From NCBI GenBank assembly GCA_949825025.1, contig OX463781.1:37164366-37228365 (forward strand): DNA of 64,000 bases, written 5' to 3'. Origin of the DNA: Siphlonurus alternatus (taxonomy: Eukaryota > Arthropoda > Insecta > Ephemeroptera > Siphlonuridae). Shown piece after piece: positions 3,292 through 62,318 of the stretch. Every line of letters begins with the position of its first letter. The first letter of the stretch is position 1. The notes below the pieces were generated by a model, which was not told the DNA's origin, did no database searches, and saw only the letters and a list, made by a program, of their open reading frames with translations. A program made the translations under genes and the position numbers.

Positions 3292-3560
3292 CTACTCTGA
3301 ATTTTTTTAGATTTTTATGAGTCCTGCAACTATTTCTAAATAATTATTGAACGTTCTGTAATTTAAGTTGGCACCCCTGAATCGTTAATAAAAAGGATAG
3401 GACAGAGATGCCTGTTGACGCCTCCAGAGGGCGTGGCAGCACATTTAATAATTATTGAAAAATAGTTCTGGGTTTCAAAAAAATCTGGAAAAAATCAGAG
3501 TAGCATAATTTGGTACCTTCAATTCATTTCTGTAATAAAAAAAATTCATGTAGGTTGTCC
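3292..3560. mobile_element. foldback MITE, family B, left end missing
   Basis: Homologous to 18274-18597 and 61402-61745. The core carries GGCACCCCTGAATC, GACGCCTCCAGAGGGCGTGG and a right arm ending CATGTAGGTTGTCC. The left arm starts abruptly at CTACTCTGAA where the SINE ends, so the outer 60 bp or so of that arm are absent. Confidence 0.8.
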
Positions 3561-3755
3561 ATTTTGCATTACAATACCGTTATGATATCACGTACTGAAT
3601 ACTTATATAGATGGCAACATATGATTGACAAAATTAATTAAAAGACTTGAAACCAAACGAGCGTAGGCGAGTTTACACCCCACCCCTAGTTGTGGAGTAT
3701 AATAATTAAATATTTAGCATCTTTTAATTATTTTATTATTTATCATGTAATTTTT
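3561..3755. other. short AT-rich spacer
   Basis: No feature recognised apart from a short block at 3655-3690 (ACGAGCGTAGGCGAGTTTAC) that is not repeated elsewhere in the window. Confidence 0.4.
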
Positions 3756-5186: not shown

Positions 5187-5529
5187 GGGTATTTTATCCG
5201 AGGGTATTTTGTCCAAGGGTATTTCGTCTAAGGGTATTTTGTCCAAGGTTATTTCGTCTAAGGGTATTTTGTCTGAGGGTATTTTGTCCAAGGGTATTTC
5301 GTCTAAGGGTATTTTGTCTGAGGGTATTTTGTCCAAGGGTATTTTGTCCAAGGGTATTTTGTCCAAGGGTTAATTGTCTAAGGGTATTTTGTCCAAGGGT
5401 TAATTGTCCAAGGGTATTTTGTCCAAGGGTTAATTGTCCAAGGGTATTTTGTCCAAGGGTATTTTGTCCTAAGGTATTTTGTCTGGGTATTATATCCGAG
5501 GGTATTTTATCAAAGGGTATTTTATCCGT
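5187..5529. repeat. 15-bp minisatellite, inverted array
   Basis: About 23 copies of CCAAGGGTATTTTGT, the reverse complement of the unit at 335-583. Variants include TTATTTCGT and TTAATTGT. At the far end, the reverse complement reads GGATAAAATACCCTTTGATA, matching the start of the forward array; beyond that only partial similarity remains. Long pentapeptide-repeat frames (DKIPL, QNTLG) are artefacts of the period. Confidence 0.95.
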
Positions 5530-18273: not shown

Positions 18274-18597
18274 AATGGAAGACCTGCATGACAATTTTTT
18301 ATTGCAGAAATGAATAGAGGGTTTCAAATTATGCTACTCTGAATTTTTTTTCCTGATTTTTTTGAGTTCCGGAAATATTTTAATATTCTGTAAGTTAAGT
18401 TGGCACCCCTGAATCCTTAATAAAAGGGATAGGGCCTATAGAAGCCTATTGACGCCTCCAGGGGGCGTAGCCGAGCTTTCAATAATTATTTAAAAATAGT
18501 TCTGGGGCTAATAAACATCTGAAAAAATTCAGAGCAGCATAATTTGTACCCTCTACTCATTTCTGTAATAAAAAATTTTCATATAGGTTGTCCATTG
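18274..18597. mobile_element. foldback MITE, family B, full length
   Basis: Ends AATGGAAGACCTGCATGAC and CATATAGGTTGTCCATT pair. Next come a TTTTTTATTGCAG stretch and its counterpart CTGTAATAAAAAA, then GAATAGAGGGTTTC, then TATGCTACTCTGAATTTTTT. The centre reads GGCACCCCTGAATCC and GACGCCTCCAGGGGGCGTAG. No coding capacity. Confidence 0.85.
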
Positions 18598-18892
18598 GAC
18601 AAAATGATACATTGAAAGTGACAAGTTGAACCATAAAAATAAGTCTACTATTCTACAGCAAATTTTGATTTATTGAGTCAAAATGTTTCCATGATATGAT
18701 CAGTTGTTTGTGGCAAGTTTGAGTTAGAATCTGGCTGCTTGAAATCAATTTTGTTTATTTCCATTCTTCCTACAATCAAAGTGTGATATTAATACAGTAA
18801 CATTTGTTGAAGTTTATAAGACAAGTCACACAAAAAGAAGGGTATTAAGAATAATTTTCTTCACCTATCAATAAAAATCTCAACAGTTGCGA
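18598..18892. other. spacer upstream of the ribozyme
   Basis: AT-rich. It may belong to the same mobile unit as the hammerhead ribozyme, but no second ribozyme copy or terminal repeat is visible here. Confidence 0.3.
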
Positions 18893-18914
18893 ACTGACTG
18901 CTTCGGCAGTCAGT
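18893..18914 (+). other. perfect hairpin with UUCG tetraloop
   Basis: ACTGACTGC, loop TTCG, GCAGTCAGT: a 9-bp perfect stem closed by C-G around UUCG, the exceptionally stable cUUCGg tetraloop. It ends at the base directly before the outermost stem of the hammerhead ribozyme. Confidence 0.8.
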
Positions 18915-18993
18915 AGCAGCCTCTTACGAGCCATACTGATGAGCCTTGGAAAAGGCGAAACTCGGGTCTATGGATACAAGAGTGAATGCTGCT
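18915..18993 (+). ncRNA. type I hammerhead ribozyme
   Basis: All core positions are present. CUGAUGA is at 18936-18942; helix II GCC/GGC (18943-18945 and 18954-18956) has an 8-nt loop UUGGAAAA; GAAA is at 18957-18960; helix III is minimal (A60-U67 and C61-G66 around UCGG, last two digits of 189xx); the cleavage site is after C18968 in GUC. Helix I has CCATA (18931-18935) paired with TATGG (18969-18973), an internal loop ACGAG/ATAC, CTCTT paired with AAGAG, and an outer AGCAGC/GCTGCT stem. The internal loop in stem I and loop II are where natural hammerheads make tertiary contacts. A minimal helix III is characteristic of hammerheads in Penelope-like elements and animal retrozymes; from that class the expected role is self-cleavage of a retroelement RNA. 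No reverse transcriptase is seen nearby. Confidence 0.88.
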
Positions 18994-19251
18994 ATGGAAC
19001 TGAATATCGCTATTTTATACATGTATATACTGTGGTGCCAAGGTGGAACACGAAAGCTGATGTAAAAAATCAACAATCGACCCCTTGAAAACTCACCTAA
19101 AAGCAATATAATAATAGTGTTCGTATCTAATATGAATATAATTTTAATATTATTATAATGACGATACTGTTGTTGTGCTCGAACCATTATTGTGCCTTAA
19201 GCCAGTAGTATAATACTATAATACAAAATAATACTCCCAAATACAATTTAC
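18994..19251. other. spacer downstream of the ribozyme
   Basis: AT-rich with a GC-richer part (GTGGTGCCAAGGTGGAAC, about 19031-19048). It may be the remainder of the ribozyme-bearing retroelement; no ORF is recognised. Confidence 0.3.
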
Positions 19252-19375
19252 GTACAGTCACCGCATTGGAAAATTTCCCACTTACAGCCTTGTTAATCAC
19301 CATGCTCTGTGTTATTCTACGGGGCATGGTGATAAACAAGGCTGCAAAGGGAAATTTTCTGAGACTACGAATGTA
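19252..19375. mobile_element. short palindromic MITE, family J, copy 1
   Basis: Near-perfect hairpin: GAAAATTTCCCACTTACAG, CCTTGTTAATCACCATGC, a short centre, then GGCATGGTGATAAACAAGG and AAAGGGAAATTTTC. Outer GTAC bases occur at both ends. Copies lie at 34661-34790, 34787-34890 and 41864-41990. Confidence 0.85.
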
Positions 19376-19428
19376 CCGCATGGTTTGCTCTCTGAGTAAA
19401 ATCTGTGTGTTATCTTAAGTTCATGAGT

Positions 19429-20395: not shown

Positions 20396-20714
20396 GGAGT
20401 ATCGCCCTCATTTTTTTTATTGCAGAAATGGGATATAGAGGGTGCAAAGTTATGCTACCCTGATTTTTCAGATTTATTACAGCCCTAGTGAAAGTATTTT
20501 TAAAAAATTATTGAAAGTCCTTTTCGTGACGTCACGAGGCGGGAAGTCCTATCCTTTTCTTAAGGAGAGACGCCACGTGACGTCACAAAATGGACTTTCA
20601 ATATTTTTTTAGAAATAGTGCTGTAAAAAATCTGAAAAAAAAAATCAGGTTACTTTGCACCCTCTATCCATTTCTGCAATAAAAAAATTTGAGGTCGCTA
20701 CTTTATTATACTCC
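20396..20714. mobile_element. foldback MITE, family C, copy 2
   Basis: Ends GGAGTATCGCCCTCA and TGAGGTCGC...ACTCC pair. Inner arms: TTTATTGCAGAAATGG, TAGAGGGTGCAAAGTTATGC, ATTATTGAAAGTCC. The centre has two CRE palindromes (TGACGTCA at 20527 and 20578) around CCTATCCTTTTCTTAAGGAG. No coding capacity. Confidence 0.85.
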
Positions 20715-30940: not shown

Positions 30941-31549
30941 CAATTCAATTTTCAATTCAATTCATTTATTCAATCAACTGGCTGTACAGGTACAACATGG
31001 ATTAAGTCATTCCTAATAATAACATTAAAATTACATAACATAAAAACACATCAAAATAACAATAATTCATAAAACTATCAAGATATGAAATACAATAGAT
31101 ACAATCAATTAAAAAACAACATTAGACAGTATATCTTCTGGCAACTTATTACAAAAGTACATTTTTACAGAGTACAATTCCTTATTTAAAAGAATATTTT
31201 TTAATTTTTCTTTAAATAATTTTTCACTTTCAACTTCTCTGAGACATGCTGGTAAAAAGTCATAAATTTTTGCAGTCTGGTAAGCGGAACTTTTTTCTAA
31301 TAAACTCGAATTATGCATTTCTAACACTATTTTATCTCTATTTCTAGTATTATAAGAGTGAAATTCACCATTATGAATATATAACTCTGGATATTTCTTC
31401 TTGAACATTGCACAATTCAAAATATACATGCTTGGCAGTGTTAGTATTTTAAGTCTCTTAAAATGACCAACACATGAGTCATGCTTTTTAAAACGTAAAA
31501 TTGTTCTAATTGATCGCTTTTGTAATACAAATAGTCTGTTTAAATGGTT
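30941..31549 (-). mobile_element. 5'-truncated non-LTR retrotransposon (LINE)
   Basis: The 3' end lies at low coordinates: TGAATTGAATTGAAAATTG (minus strand, 30959-30941) is the repeated tail, preceded by a short 3' UTR (TGTACCTGTACAGCCAG) and the reverse-transcriptase C-terminus. The element is cut off inside the ORF at 31549, as usual for target-primed reverse transcription. 3'-end relatives of this family are at 33921-34080 and 49205-50180. Confidence 0.9.
31109..31543 (-). CDS. reverse transcriptase C-terminal fragment of a LINE (CR1/Jockey-type)
   Basis: The open frame of about 145 codons runs from the truncation point to TAA with no stop or frameshift. In order it shows RLFVLQKRSIRTIL, HDSCVGHFKRLKILTLPS, FHSYNTRNRDKI, KSSAYQTAKIYDFLP and LKNILLNKELYSV. 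These blocks are typical of the region downstream of the polymerase domain in CR1/Jockey-like elements (usual forms LQKRAIRII, ILTLPSLYI, HSYNTRNK, FYSVEEFL). The catalytic FADD box and the endonuclease are absent through 5' truncation, so the fragment has no polymerase activity. The intact frame indicates a relatively recent insertion. No promoter of its own. Confidence 0.9.
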   Translation of the reverse strand, partial: LNRLFVLQKRSIRTILRFKKHDSCVGHFKRLKILTLPSMYILNCAMFKKKYPELYIHNGEFHSYNTRNRDKIVLEMHNSSLLEKSSAYQTAKIYDFLPACLREVESEKLFKEKLKNILLNKELYSVKMYFCNKLPEDILSNVVF

Positions 31550-31591
31550 CGCGTCGCGTCACATGGTAAAAATCGTCATGTGAATCCACCT

Positions 31592-34660: not shown

Positions 34661-34790
34661 TCCTCGCCTCTGGAAAGTTCCTTTCTGCAGCCTTATTAAT
34701 CTATTAATCACCATGCTGTGTGTTATAATTACGGGGTATGGTGATTAACAAGGCTGATAGAAGGGAACTTTTCAGAGGCGAGGAGTGTAC
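34661..34790. mobile_element. MITE family J, copy 2
   Basis: Outer CCTCGCCTCTGGAAAGTTCC pairs with GGAACTTTTCAGAGGCGAGG; inner TTAATCACCATGC pairs with GTATGGTGATTAA. The left arm carries an 8-bp internal repeat (TTAATCTATTAATC). Confidence 0.85.
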
Positions 34791-34890
34791 AGTCGTCACC
34801 TCTGAAAATTTCCCTTGATAATCACCATGCCCCATAAGAATAACACAATTTCCATCTCAAGTGGGAAATTTTCCAAGGCGACGAGTTTAC
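34787..34890. mobile_element. MITE family J, copy 3, abutting copy 2
   Basis: GTACAGTCGTCACCTCTGAAA to CCAAGGCGACGAGTTTAC (one break). The inner arms are partly lost: the right half lacks the GGTGATTAACAAGG block. It shares the junction bases GTAC with copy 2. Confidence 0.75.
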
Positions 34891-35040
34891 ATATAAAATT
34901 GATATCACTCAGAAGACATATACTGCAGACAAGAAGTGAACCAAGGAAAAGTGGAAAAGAAGCGTGGACACAAACGGATTGTGGTTGGCTTGTTGCTTGT
35001 TCGTGTAAAGAAATCAATCAGCTCCTGGACGTCGGTGTCC

Positions 35041-38400: not shown

Positions 38401-38862
38401 CGATCTATTCCGCATATACTACTTCTAAATGCTATTAACATGCAATTTCTGAATGCTAATTCTATTAACAAAAATCTAATGTTTAAAACGTTAGTTTTTA
38501 AATGGTAAAAACAGTGATTAAATAGCAAAGACATTTAGCTATTTTTCTAAATACTTTTAACGTTCAGTAAATGTTAAAAGCATGGAGGGTCTGAATACCG
38601 ATTTTTTGCAGTGTAACTACGCATTACGTATAAAATACAAAATAAATTGAATTCAAATGCATTAATATTTACACACTATTTACTATATTGTATAACATTT
38701 TCTTCAGCAAATCTAACATTAGATACATTTTGCAACATTTAATATCAACAGGAAATTTGATTTAAAATTCGATTAAAAATTAAAATAAATTATGCTCACA
38801 ATGTTTTTATTTTTAAAATATTATAGCTAGAATACTTAACGATATATTAATATATATATGTT

Positions 38863-40515
38863 AGCACCCAAAGCCGAATTCGGGCAAAAGCCGAAAGAAA
38901 TGCTCACATCTAGTTCTGCGCATCACGAAATGAGCCAAAGCCGAAGTGAGGTTTATTTTCGGCTTTGGCGCATTTCATTTTGAACAAAACTAGATCTGCT
39001 CAAATCGAAATGCGCCAAAGCCGATATGAGATTTTACTTCGGCTTTGGCGCATTTCATTTTGAGCAAAACTAGTTCTGCGCATCGCGGTTTGAGCAAAAG
39101 TCGAAATGATATTTTATTTCGGGTTTGGAGCAAAATTTTGAGCACATCTAGTTTTGAGCAAAATAAAGATGATTTTAATGACGAGATGATGATTTTAATG
39201 ATATTAATTTTAATTTTTTAAAAAGAAAAATAAAAAACTAAGACACTAAACTTATAATAAATATTATTAATATTGTGAACTAATATATATATTTTAAGGG
39301 CTGTTGAAAAATAAATTAATTAGGAAAAAAATAATGACTTTAAAATGCAATCATACAGTATACGTACGTACATACCTTATAAAAAATATTGTAGAATCTG
39401 TTGTTTTTATAAAACACTCCACCCTTTCTGACACTTAATTACTATATTTGATTATGTTTTTGTTAAATTAATAATTTTTTTGTTTTAAGAACTGCAGCTC
39501 AAATAAAATGGACATATACGCCACACGTTTTGAAGTATTCTTTAGGTTCACTCGCCCTCACCATTAGAAATATTGTCATGCACGCACGTAAATTTCATAG
39601 TTCTATTTCTTCGAACATTTTAGCAGCCACAATACATAAACATATACGGCAATCAAATGGGGTTAAACTTCATTGCAGAGGTAAAGGCTACTTTCTTATC
39701 TCGTTGTACCGATAACAACCTGTATTGCATGATAGCCTAATTCTAAGACATAGAACTATGAAATTTACAAGTGCGTGCATGACAATATTTCTAATGGTGA
39801 GGGCGAGTGAACCTAAAGAATACTTCAAAACGTGTGGCGTATATGTCCATTTTATTTGAGCTGCAGTTCTTAAAACAAAAAAATTATTAATTTAACAAAA
39901 ACATAATCAAATATAGTAATTAAGTGTCAGAAATGGTGGAGTGTTTTATAAAAACAACAGATTCTACAATATTTTTTATAAGGTATGTACAGTACGTACG
40001 TATATATACTGTATGATTGCATTTTAAAGTCATTATTTTTTCCCTAATTAATTTATTTTTAAACAGCGCTTGAAAGATATATATTACTTCACAACATTAA
40101 TAATATTTATTAGAAGTTTAGTGTCTTAGTTTTTTTATTTTTCTTTTTAAAAAATTAAAATTAATATCATTAAAATTAAAATCATCATCTCGTTATTAAA
40201 ATCATCTTTATTTTGCGCAAAACTAGATGTGCTCAAAATTTTGCTCCAAACCCGAAATAAAATATCATTTCGACTTTTGCTCAAACCGCGATGCGCAGAA
40301 CTAGTTTTGCTCAAAATGAAATGCGCCAAGGCCGAAGTAAAATCTCATATCGGCTTTGGCGCATTTCGATTTGAGCAGTTCTAGTTTTGTTCAAAATGAA
40401 ATGCGCCAAAGCCGAAAATAAACCTCACTTCGGCTTTGGCTCATTTCGTGATGCGCAGAACTAGATGTGAGCATTTTTTTCGGCTTTTGCCCGAATTCGG
40501 CTTTGGGTGCTAACA
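38863..40515. mobile_element. 1.65-kb near-perfect palindrome (giant foldback element)
   Basis: Left arm 38863-39611 and right arm about 39744-40515 are inverted copies with few mismatches, around a unique 132-bp centre. The outer ends are GTTAGCACCCAAAGCCGAAT and its complement. The outer 300 bp of each arm are themselves built of repeated quasi-palindromic units (GCCAAAGCCGA then TCGGCTTTGGCGCATTTC, and ACTAGTTCTGCGCAT). The inner part carries GGTTCACTCGCCCTCACC and AGTATACGTACGTAC. A 60-codon frame in each arm is an ordinary by-product. No transposase. The target duplication is uncertain because both flanks are ATAT-rich. Confidence 0.88.
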
Positions 40516-41447
40516 TATATATCCTATAATAAAGTAATTTCCATGTATTATAAATTAAATACTAAATTATTGTTTAAGTTATTGAATTAAATATTAAATA
40601 GGTGAGGCAGACAATTCACTGAGTGAAGGACTATCTGAAATTTTGTCAAAATGTCACATTTTCCAATACCGGATGGAAAAATAAATAAATAAAACTAAGA
40701 TTGCATTTACTGCAAGGTAAATGAAGTTTTTTATAAAATATATTTATGTTATACAGCTTGATTCACGAAGGAAATACACAGAAATATATTCAGGCTTGGT
40801 AGCCTCAATTAGTATCATTGATTTAGGCATGCATGGTTATTGAGAAAGTTTACTTTTTTTTCTTTCGAAAGCTGCATCTAAAATATACAATTTCTTTATT
40901 TATACATTAATGGATATGCAGTGTAGTAAATATCTTAAATGTCACATGCAGATGGGTATCCAAGAAAGTGACCAATATGCATTATAAAAAGTGACGACAA
41001 AGAAGAAAAATAAACTTGCATTTTGAATGTTTGACTACAATAGTTTCATTGCTGTAAACTTTTTAAATTAAACAAACTTTAACCTTACAAAGAAAATAAC
41101 ATATAACAGTATATTTTGTTTTACAAAATAAAATATATTTAAACATAAAACACTACTTAAATTACTTAACAAACAGTAATTTCTATATTTTATTAGTATT
41201 TTTCTTCATTAAATTAAATATAATCTGTTTTTTCCACCATGTTACATTATTAAATTTAATAATAATTTTCATTCTGAAAACAATTTAACAATTTTCATGT
41301 TTGTTGAAAATTTATTCTCCTTCTAGTACAATGGAATTATGATGCATACAAAACACTTCTTTCCAAGTGTAAAACAGTGAACAAGAGGCTTTAAATGGTG
41401 TAAAATATTCAGCTGGAGTCTAATGGCTGCGCATACAATGCCTGCAG
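40516..41447. other. AT-rich stretch
   Basis: No gene or bounded element recognised. Confidence 0.5.
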
Positions 41448-41863: not shown

Positions 41864-41990
41864 TGTACACTCGTCACCTTTGAAAATTTCCCACTTGCAG
41901 ACTTGTTAATCACCATGCCTTGTGTTATTCTTACGGGGCATGGTGATTAACAAGGCCGCAAAGGGAAATATTACGATTTGACGAGCATAC
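41864..41990. mobile_element. MITE family J, copy 4
   Basis: GTACACTCGTCACCTTTGAAA (one break) to GATTTGACGAGCATAC, with the inner hairpin CTTGTTAATCACCATGCC / GGCATGGTGATTAACAAGG. Best-preserved copy of the family. Confidence 0.88.
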
Positions 41991-45585: not shown

Positions 45586-46277
45586 ATGGAATTTCTGGGA
45601 AATATGAGGAGAGATAGAGACAAGCTTCTTATAAGAAAGGTTATGACACTCTAAAGCGAGTCTTCCTTGTTATTCAATTATCTAACTAAAACCTTTATGT
45701 GGAGTTTGAAGTTGAATTGAAACGTCGCTACCTTATTCCTCTTAAACACCATTTGAAATTTGTATTAAAAGTAAATTATAATGGAGTATTGACCTAAATT
45801 TTTTTTATTGTAGAAATGGATAGAGGGTGCAAAGTTATGCTACCCCGTTTTTTTTCAGATTTTTTACGGACCTGGAAGTATTTTTAAAAAATTATTGAAT
45901 GTCTTTTATATGACGTCACGCGGCGGCAAGTCCTATCCTTTTCATAAGAAGAGGTGCCTCGTGACGTTACAAAAATTACTTTTAATAATTTTTTAAAAAT
46001 ACTTCCAGGTCCATAAAAAATCTGAAAAATAATCAGGGTAATATAACTTTGCACTCTTTATTCATTTATGCAATAAAAAAAAAATTGAGGTCGATATTCC
46101 ATTATAATACTTTTAATACAAATTACAAATAGCGTTTACGAGGAATAAGCTAGCGACGTTTCAATTCAACGTCAAACTCCACATCAAGGTTACGATAATT
46201 GAATAACAAGGAAAAGTCGCTTGAGTGTCATAACCTTTCTTCTCTCTATCTCTCCTTATATTTCCCAGAACTTCCAT
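45586..46277. mobile_element. palindrome with a second palindrome at its centre
   Basis: Outer arms 45586-45777 and 46106-46277 pair: AATTTCTGGGAAATATGAGG, GAAAGGTTATGACACTC, CTTGTTATTCAATTATC, GTTGAATTGAAACGTCGCTA, AATTTGTATTAAAAGTA. Exactly at their meeting point lies a full family C MITE (45778-46105). Either the MITE inserted at the exact centre of symmetry or both layers move as one unit. Confidence 0.85.
45778..46105. mobile_element. foldback MITE, family C, copy 3
   Basis: Ends ATAATGGAGTATTGACCTA and GAGGTCGATATTCCATTAT. Inner ATTGTAGAAATGGATAGAGG and GTGCAAAGTTATGCTACCCC. Centre TGACGTCACGCGGCGGCAAG, CCTATCCTTTTCATAAGAAG. Confidence 0.88.
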
Positions 46278-54478: not shown

Positions 54479-54489
54479 CAGTAGCTTGC

Positions 54490-54879
54490 GCGCAGTGCAT
54501 TGACCGGTTCTCGTTAGATCACTGAAGTCAGGCTACGTCGAGCGTGGTTAGTACTTGGATGGGTGACCATTTCAAGTAAAAAATACGCTGCTCCCTCCCT
54601 GGGGTAAATTCATCTCGCTTTCCACCCAGTGCAGTGATGCACTTGTGTGTGGTTCCCCAGGCTTTGGAAATCGCTTTGGTCCATTGAGAAAAAGTAGAGG
54701 TGTCCGTCCTGACTGAGGTTTTCCACGGTTCCCTCAGTCTCACCTCAGCGAATGCTGGGACGCGTAGCATGCAGGCCGTGGCCACTATCCGTTCCCTACC
54801 TTATCCCTACCCAGTACCCCGCCGCGAGCTGTAAGCTCTTAGGGATGTATCCTTGTAAAAAAAAAAAAAAAAAAAAAAT
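54490..54879 (+). mobile_element. 5S-rRNA-derived SINE, near full length with poly(A)
   Basis: The 5' domain copies 5S rRNA: GCATTGACCGGTTCTCG, TTAGATCACTGAAGTC, GGTTAGTACTTGGATGGG (box A / intermediate element / box C region). A tRNA-unrelated body follows: CCACCCAGTGCAGTGATGC, TCCTGACTGAGGTTTTCC, ACCTCAGCGAATGCTGGGA, GCAGGCCGTGGCCAC, and a 3' end CTCTTAGGGATGTATCC with A23. This is the SINE3-type design: internal Pol III promoter from 5S RNA, mobilised by a partner LINE. Fragments of the same family are at 3110, 33010 and 53476. It is not a functional 5S gene because the 5S similarity stops at about 70 nt. Confidence 0.9.
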
Positions 54880-61401: not shown

Positions 61402-61745
61402 CAATGGACAACATACATGTCATGAAAAAATTTATTGCAGAAATTAATAGAGGGCACCAAATTATGCTACTTTGAATTTTTTCAGATTTTTTTGAGACCC
61501 GGAACTATTTTTAAATAATTATTCAAAGTTCAAAGTGCGGCCACGCCCCCTGGAGGCGTCAATAGGCGTCCAGTCTCTATCCTTTATATTAAGAATTCAG
61601 GGGTGCCAACTGAGATCACAGGACTTTCAACAATTATTTAAAAATAGTTCCGGGTCTCAAAAAAATCTGAAAAAATTCAGAGTAGCATAATTTGATACCC
61701 TCTATTCATTTCTGCAATAAAAATTTTTCATGTATGCTGTCCATT
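61402..61745. mobile_element. foldback MITE, family B, full length, copy 3
   Basis: Ends AATGGACAACATACATG and CATGTATGCTGTCCATT pair with one mismatch. Arms: TTTATTGCAGAAATTAATAG, TATGCTACTTTGAATTTTTT, GAGACCCGGAACTATTTTTA. Centre: GGCCACGCCCCCTGGAGGCG, reverse relative to 18274-18597. Confidence 0.88.
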
Positions 61746-61987
61746 GACAATAAATATGGATGCAAGAGCATTTGACTGATTCCACGTTTAAAAAAAAAAA
61801 TAAAAAAAAGCGTATTCCACAGACCAATCATAGCGCACATCTTGTGTGCACCTTAATTGACAGTATATAATCCTTTTTATTTATACGTAACAGAAATAAA
61901 TTTGGCACATCATTTAGTGGGTTGTACAAGCAATTTCTGCATCGTTTTCAATTAACTTTTTCTTCTTTATTTTTAGGAGACTGTCAT
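61746..61987. other. AT-rich spacer
   Basis: TTTTCTTCTTTATTTTTAG (61959-61977) is a good acceptor-like tract, but no exon follows because the MITE begins 10 bases later. Confidence 0.4.
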
Positions 61988-62318
61988 ATAATGGAATATC
62001 AACCTAATTTTTTTTTATTGCAGAATTTGATAGAGCGTGCAAAGTTATGCTACCCTGATTTTTTTCAGATTTTTTAGAGCCCGGGAACTATTTTTAAAGA
62101 ATTATTGAAAGTTATTTTTGTGACGTCACGAGACGCCGCTCCTTAAGAAAAAGATAGGACTTGCCGCCTCGTGATGTCACAAAAAGGACTTTCAATAATT
62201 TTTTAAAAATACTTCCCGGGCTCTGAAAATTTTGAAAAAAATCAGGGTAGCATAACTTTACTTTGCACGCTCTATCCATTTCTGCAATAAAAAAAAATTG
62301 AGGTCGATACTCCATTAT
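61988..62318. mobile_element. foldback MITE, family C, copy 4
   Basis: Ends ATAATGGAATATCAACCTA and GAGGTCGATACTCCATTAT. Arms GCAAAGTTATGCTACCCTGA and CCCGGGAACTATTTTTAAAG. Centre with TGACGTCACGAGACGCC and a diverged second site GTGATGTCAC. Best-defined copy of family C. Confidence 0.9.

Follow-up and report, generated by a model that had tools for sequence, protein, structure and literature searches.

A 64,000-nt stretch of the Siphlonurus alternatus genome (the window) carries one copy of a family that is quite probably a non-autonomous, retrozyme-like element of 554 nt without a protein gene, reverse-transcribed from both ends of its target by Penelope-type machinery and probably from circular RNA. 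In the DNA itself the family is marked by its ribozyme architecture, its repeat unit, palindromes with fixed outer and variable inner ends, tail asymmetry, target-site duplications, and similarity within loci; from these features we infer ribozyme cleavage, circularity of the template, and the Penelope type of the enzyme.

Hammerhead ribozyme in the window

The first-pass annotation of the window had proposed a type I hammerhead ribozyme with an invariant core, three helices, and a helix III of only two base pairs. Each of these blocks was located on the + strand at window positions 18914-18994, with a cut predicted after C18968, as follows.

18893..18914, + strand: UUCG-capped 9-bp hairpin, directly 5′ of the ribozyme, base 18914 being common to the hairpin and helix I
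18914..18994, + strand: type I hammerhead ribozyme, all helices
18914-18920/18988-18994, + strand: helix I, outer block
18921-18925/18978-18982, + strand: helix I, middle block
18931-18935/18969-18973, + strand: helix I, inner block
18936..18942, + strand: CUGAUGA core box (CTGATGA in the DNA)
18943..18956, + strand: helix II (18943-18947/18952-18956) with GGAA loop
18957-18959, + strand: GAA box
18960-18961/18966-18967, + strand: helix III, 2 bp, with TCGG loop
18957..18968, + strand: GAAA box, 2-bp helix III with TCGG loop, and GUC cleavage triplet, cut predicted after C18968

The invariant core and the three helices are arranged in the type I topology, in which helix I is open, and other copies of the element have the same architecture. 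The internal loop that had been described in helix I, as expected for a tertiary contact with loop II, was also found (ACGAG/ATAC), and its 3′ side retains the UAC of the HH9 consensus. The 8-nt loop II of the same description, however, is obtained only if helix II is restricted to 3 bp; when all 5 bp of helix II are formed, loop II is the 4-nt GGAA. The UUCG-capped hairpin upstream of the hammerhead is also present in the 554-bp unit. In RNAfold predictions for the window copy, an alternative fold that sequesters CUGA was favored over the hammerhead fold by 6.2 kcal/mol, and a comparable gap of 5.5 kcal/mol was calculated for the HH9 consensus. The AUG within CUGAUGA (window 18939 onward) starts a 38-codon frame that runs through the ribozyme in the 554-bp unit (L133).

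Covariance scores and chance controls

When the window was searched with Rfam models, no match was obtained at gathering score. The best match in E-value mode was to HH9 (RF02275), with 24.6 bits against a gathering score of 52 and an E value of 0.098 over the window, or 4.6e-4 when 301 bases were searched. Hammerhead_3 (RF00008) reached 27.4 bits against 48.5, from 51 bases only. The above-threshold covariance match that had been proposed as a check is therefore absent for the window copy, and such an absence had been named beforehand as grounds for discarding the ribozyme. We read the low score as a limit of the models, because both the core and the topology of a type I hammerhead are present; CUGAUGAG, CGAAAC, and GUC of the window copy are also those of the HH9 consensus.

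The score below gathering is the point in favor of a chance hammerhead-like sequence, a reading to which we give hardly any credence. A loose descriptor consisting of the core with helices II and III matched 81 times in 600 one-strand shuffles, and none of these matches had the 5-bp inner block of helix I; the window itself has a single full match, on the + strand, and its − strand has none. Among random arm pairs of the same geometry, 62 of 10000 were as good as the outer arms of helix I, as were 85 of 5000 when one arm was made two bases shorter. By these controls, a chance hammerhead in one window is very unlikely. Across a genome of 456 Mb the controls alone are insufficient, and it is the genomic copies that exclude chance at that scale: the exact core string is retained in 36 of 40 recovered hammerheads, the window's among them, within a mobile element. 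Chance was rejected on these grounds. Elsewhere, two hammerhead patterns had 0 matches in viral contigs, and a hammerhead search in prokaryote genome contigs found none.

Repeat unit and genomic copies

The genome (455.7 Mb in 102 contigs) was searched at the DNA level with window positions 18880-19085 as the query. At least 42 matches were found, with 40 of 250 candidates scored, at 20 loci on nine contigs, and all 20 loci of the matches listed, window included, were mapped onto one real unit of 554 bp with a G + C content of 44.8%. In the first 15 of the 20 mapped loci, again including the window, 40 hammerheads were recovered by means of their outer arms. The genome-wide search for further copies, which had been suggested as a further check, yielded 20 loci and defined the carrier as a 554-bp unit. 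It had also been stated that no tandem copy or terminal repeat is visible; this is correct inside the window but not genome-wide, where the unit forms tandem and palindromic arrays with target-site duplications.

The 554-bp unit has no + strand frame above 78 codons and no reverse transcriptase or GIY-YIG ORF. Pfam analysis of the window frames 18855-19088 and 18924-19196 gave no match at E 0.1, that of 20 window frames gave nothing above cut-off, and a tRNA search found none. In the locus pairs compared, the shared sequence was not seen to extend past the unit. Like retrozymes, the element has a type I hammerhead once per unit and no protein gene, and it is multi-copy with tandem units when the whole genome is considered, the window copy being single; at 554 bp, the unit lies outside the 170-400 nt that is usual, though not defining, for retrozymes. 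Because the unit lacks a reverse transcriptase and a GIY-YIG ORF, the element is not itself a Penelope-like element, and what the two have in common is the insertion footprint only.

The window copy appears, from its sequence similarity to the family, to be an old, single-arm, 5′-truncated member with the following parts.

18878..19104 (end approximate), + strand: single-arm, 5′-truncated retrozyme copy, unit 345 to about 561
19071..19104, + strand: tail region between the alternative outer ends, unit about 528 and about 561

In a blastn alignment, window 18878-19097 corresponded to unit 345-554 with 91.8% identity over the aligned part, and the window copy carries a 10-bp insertion relative to the unit. 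The TAAAAGC that follows the aligned part agrees with the usual outer end at unit 561, and the copy terminates at the distal outer end. No palindrome was found at the window copy, and no duplication around it: the longest shared word was 7, and a duplication search gave nothing above shuffles. Two palindromic MITE-like repeats flank the copy (18274-18598 and 19250-19377), and relatives of these repeats lie at 3292-3563, 20413-20690, 45801-46080, and 61402-62294, and at 34668-34893 and 41865-41972.

Insertion scars

Head-to-head palindromes were found at 15 of the 20 loci and tail-to-tail arrangements at none of the 20. The palindrome arms hold 0.14 to 6.64 unit lengths and meet at variable inner junctions; in the array at C11:29492759, the left arm is interrupted for about 315 nt. 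The outer ends, as aligned, fall at 554 on one arm and at 501-534 on the other in 15/15 palindromes (527-534 in 13/15), and the five single-direction loci, window included, all retain the 554 end. After removal of the duplications, the distal ends map to unit 554-564 and the proximal ones to 527-531, apart from one at 500. In 13 of 14 loci the distal and proximal ends are 26-35 nt apart, and in the remaining one 61 nt; C6:3036305, which is without a duplication, was left out of this measurement. The proximal end lies 1-5 nt past an A6 run in the unit, and neither poly(A) nor a simple repeat is found at the distal end.

Words of at least 10 nt are shared by both ends at 16 of the 20 loci, compared with 3 of 380 cross-locus pairs, and the counts were 12/20 and 2/380 when only bases outside the aligned element were used. 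The loci without such a word are the window (7), C6:3036305 (5), C3:10984100 (8), and C11:32238602 (9). For the 17 loci with a duplication of at least 9 nt, the mean length is 12.2 bp (range, 9 to 14 nt) and the A + T content is 85%, that of the window overall being 70%; the duplication at C3:3926700 is mostly a T run.

In Adineta vaga, the pLTRs of Penelope copies are described as inverted and head-to-head; one of these pLTRs has a 31-bp tail, and the duplications measure 8-10 bp (PMC3846280). The purified Penelope-like protein of Anolis (Poseidon) is reported to cut and extend both target strands at AT-rich targets and to start at two adjacent internal RNA sites that match a tail of 30-40 bp (PMC11167929). 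Head-to-head ends, a one-sided tail, and short duplications, which make up the Penelope insertion footprint, are present at the loci, though not at the window copy alone. Because the scars match in orientation, tail, and duplication, Penelope-type machinery quite probably inserted the elements. The scar is also reproducible and measurable, and it matches the two start sites recorded in vitro for the Penelope protein (PMC11167929).

An enzyme of the LINE type could instead have moved the element, with the palindromes produced by twin priming; the genome has many intact LINE reverse transcriptases, and the proximal end lies close behind the A6 run. We consider this improbable, as the distal end has neither poly(A) nor a simple repeat, and two fixed ends about 33 nt apart, one per arm, are the published Penelope signature. 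The 3′ end that a LINE or a Penelope partner would be expected to share is GAAAACTCACCTAAATGC. A DNA transposon of the foldback or terminal-inverted-repeat kind, with a hammerhead carried by coincidence, was also considered in view of the palindromic copies, their inverted ends, and the duplications. This candidate was rejected as very improbable: the two ends are unequal (by 26-35 nt in 13/14), the inner junctions vary and the arms hold different numbers of units, 5/20 copies are without one arm, and the duplications vary from 9 to 14 nt.

Homogeneity within loci and the RNA template

Across 15 loci, segments differ by 0.27% within a locus (74 pairs, up to 45 of which come from one array) and by 1.70% between loci (779 pairs), and none of 2000 label shuffles gave a contrast as extreme. 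In five older palindromes, the arms are 1.0-2.3% apart, as expected if they have aged. Variants that are private to a locus and occur in every covering unit of both arms were found in 5 of 15 palindromes, the other 10 being without them.

C1:50020000: ins321A, in 9/9 units and nowhere else (clearest case)
C1:6423602: three private variants
C2:4596459: four private variants
C11:68332245: C36T, in 4/4 units
C6:3036305: one private variant

Taken together, the homogeneity and the private variants would fit repeated copying of one small RNA from both ends. Part of the homogeneity within loci could also stem from gene conversion between arms.

Because the arms pass the cut site for up to 6.64 unit lengths, a circular template appears the likelier form. 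The same element and enzyme might otherwise have used a linear multimeric transcript, with the ribozyme acting at another step, which we hold to be rather unlikely. This alternative has to be weighed because the ribozyme is reported to be dispensable for insertion in vitro: in the Penelope system, ribozyme mutants insert equally well and the main template is unprocessed RNA (PMC11167929). The source arrays are homogeneous, so a multimer would also yield near-identical units. However, an active ribozyme is expected to cut most multimers, and the arms nevertheless run across the cleavage site; an inserted base in 9/9 units of both arms, and only there, fits one small template more simply. Neither of these two points is decisive against a linear multimer.

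In the mechanism that we propose, tandem genomic copies would be transcribed, the hammerhead would cut each unit after unit position 435 (C18968 in the window), and the monomers would be closed into circles. A Penelope-type reverse transcriptase with an endonuclease would cut AT-rich DNA on both strands, and, with each target 3′ end as primer, reverse transcription would begin at one of two fixed sites within the RNA (unit about 528 and about 561). Going round the circle would generate tandem units, and the two nascent arms would meet at a variable point. The expected product is a head-to-head palindrome with its 3′ ends outward and a tail of ~33 nt on one arm only, lying between duplications of ~12 bp. 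We put forward more tentatively, at somewhat short of even chances, the full claim that the palindromic arrays are the record of two-ended rolling reverse transcription on one small ribozyme-made circle by a Penelope-type enzyme, both target strands priming at two fixed neighboring sites. If true, it would fill in how animal retrozymes are mobilized, a step missing so far, and would add the circle-templated palindrome as a new type of product. The circle model yields simple predictions that can be decided by RNA and biochemical tests.

A second hammerhead family

Hammerhead_1 (RF00163) matched four places on contig C11 (L112-L115), three of which were marked as over cut-off. In a separate scan, two of them, L112 and L113, stood at or above the gathering score of 34, with 39.3 and 34.1 bits, respectively. 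These four sequences belong to a single further family and differ by 13-23%. In three of them, the helix III layout is GAAAC, 4 nt, and GUC, as in the window copy, and L115 has a changed core base. As read from their alignments, helix I includes a CUCU/AGAG block and a hairpin lies upstream, the latter missing from the predicted fold of L114. Compared with shuffled sequences in RNAfold, L112 (z −2.18) and L115 (z −2.90) folded better, and L113 (z −0.78) and L114 (z +1.77) did not. The window and L112-L115 served as the source of a structural model, R1, whose matches to those sequences arise by construction and are not counted as evidence.

L112 is a head-to-head copy whose ends fall at about 399 and 431-436 on a working reference; its duplication is 11 bp long, and this one copy of the second family appears to repeat the Penelope-type scar. 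L115 has a 14-nt shared word at its ends, and L113 and L114 have no clear duplication (8 and 7 nt). For this family, the two ends were compared within each locus only. The distances from the cut site to the two ends are about 93 and 126 nt in the 554-bp family and about 233 and 265-270 in the L112 family, whereas the tail is alike between the families (about 33 vs 32-37 nt).

Search for the reverse transcriptase and a parent element

A search for a Penelope-like gene with the GIY-YIG profile (PF01541), which is insensitive to Penelope elements, gave two matches from 8 candidates, neither of them Penelope-like. One lies on L148 (contig C85), which has bacterial-looking frames within the animal assembly and is either a symbiont or a contaminant; the other presumably resembles Slx1. 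The search with RVT_1 (PF00078), likewise insensitive to Penelope elements, found no Penelope-like gene among the 150 of 4484 candidates that were scored, and a crude motif scan of 30 RVT_1 loci found no GIY-YIG-like pattern. All 10 of the 10 reverse transcriptase frames typed by Pfam had an APE-type endonuclease or RNase H and are therefore assigned to LINEs. Dense clusters of similar-scoring LINE-type reverse transcriptases, many with frames of 1233 codons, occur at C7:2.2-2.7 Mb and C8:4.2-5.3 Mb (L181); L181 was typed by Pfam as carrying an APE-type endonuclease, a reverse transcriptase, and RNase H.

The family could alternatively have arisen by internal deletion from an autonomous Penelope-like element, its copies being solo or tandem pseudo-LTRs and not an independent retrozyme lineage. 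Its footprint is that of Penelope elements, and the AUG of its ribozyme opens the 38-codon frame, as the ORF of the Anolis Penelope is described to start at ribozyme helix II (PMC11167929); the reduction of such elements has also been proposed as the origin of retrozymes in a 2024 review (PMC11722881). However, the unit has no frame longer than 78 codons, the locus pairs compared have nothing in common beyond it, and its ribozyme departs from the minimal Penelope type in having a helix III and an internal loop. A parent element was also not found by the above searches, which are insensitive to Penelope elements. We regard such a derivation as doubtful.

Other features of the window

At 38843-40531, nested long inverted repeats with arms of 375, 168, and 220 nt occur together with 80-bp tandem repeats. 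This region matches MIR7504 below gathering score (62.2 of 83 bits) and is most likely a foldback element. Minisatellites of 15 bp lie in inverted orientation at 334-598 and 5190-5454, about 4.6 kb apart. A weak 5S rRNA-like match at 54480-54593 (25.8 of 38 bits) is possibly a 5S-derived SINE or due to chance. On the − strand, a 149-codon reading frame at 31109-31558 had no Pfam match above cut-off and no protein-database match; we take it to resemble the C-terminus of a LINE.

Comparison with known systems

The first-pass annotation had linked the 2-bp helix III to Penelope-like elements and animal retrozymes. The hammerhead type and the link hold, but the ribozyme is not the minimal Penelope one, which is said to lack helix III or loop contacts (PMC7761336); with its 2-bp helix III closed by a tetraloop and its internal loop in helix I, it more closely resembles the ribozymes of canonical animal retrozymes.

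Hammerheads in dispersed or tandem repeats are also known from the satellites of Schistosoma, newt, and cave cricket, which are likened to the present family by description and not by sequence; no palindromic arrays with a one-sided tail are described for them in the text available to us. For the W-elements of Schistosoma, the hammerheads are backed by functional evidence, and a duplication may also be present (PMC8490949).

Type I hammerheads have already been described in animal retrozymes (PMC7229834). The metazoan non-LTR retrozymes (Cervera and de la Pena, 2020; PMC7229834) resemble the 554-bp element in the type I hammerhead, the lack of a protein gene, the tandem units, a G + C content below 50% (44.8% here), and target-site duplications of >4 bp. 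They differ in size, being about 170-400 nt compared with 554 bp, and the head-to-head palindromes with a one-sided tail that characterize the present loci are undescribed in the accessible part of that report.

As reported for Penelope-like elements (PMC3846280, PMC11167929), the element has head-to-head inverted ends, a one-sided tail of ~31-33 nt, short duplications in AT-rich sites, and a hammerhead upstream of the start of reverse transcription. Unlike Penelope-like elements, its 554-bp unit contains no reverse transcriptase or endonuclease gene, and its hammerhead, with helix III and an internal loop, is not minimal.

The mover of animal retrozymes is a standing question. Penelope-like elements were named as strong candidates in 2020 on the basis of shared hammerheads, tandem copies, and co-occurrence (PMC7229834), and a 2024 review considers mobilization by LINEs or by Penelope-like elements (PMC11722881). 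Penelope-type scars of retrozymes were not found described in the open-access literature searched, a scope outside which most subscription papers and all preprints fall. As far as the open-access literature surveyed shows, the 554-bp unit is new, as are Penelope-type scars in a retrozyme-like element, and insertion scars are stronger evidence than co-occurrence on the question of what moves animal retrozymes.
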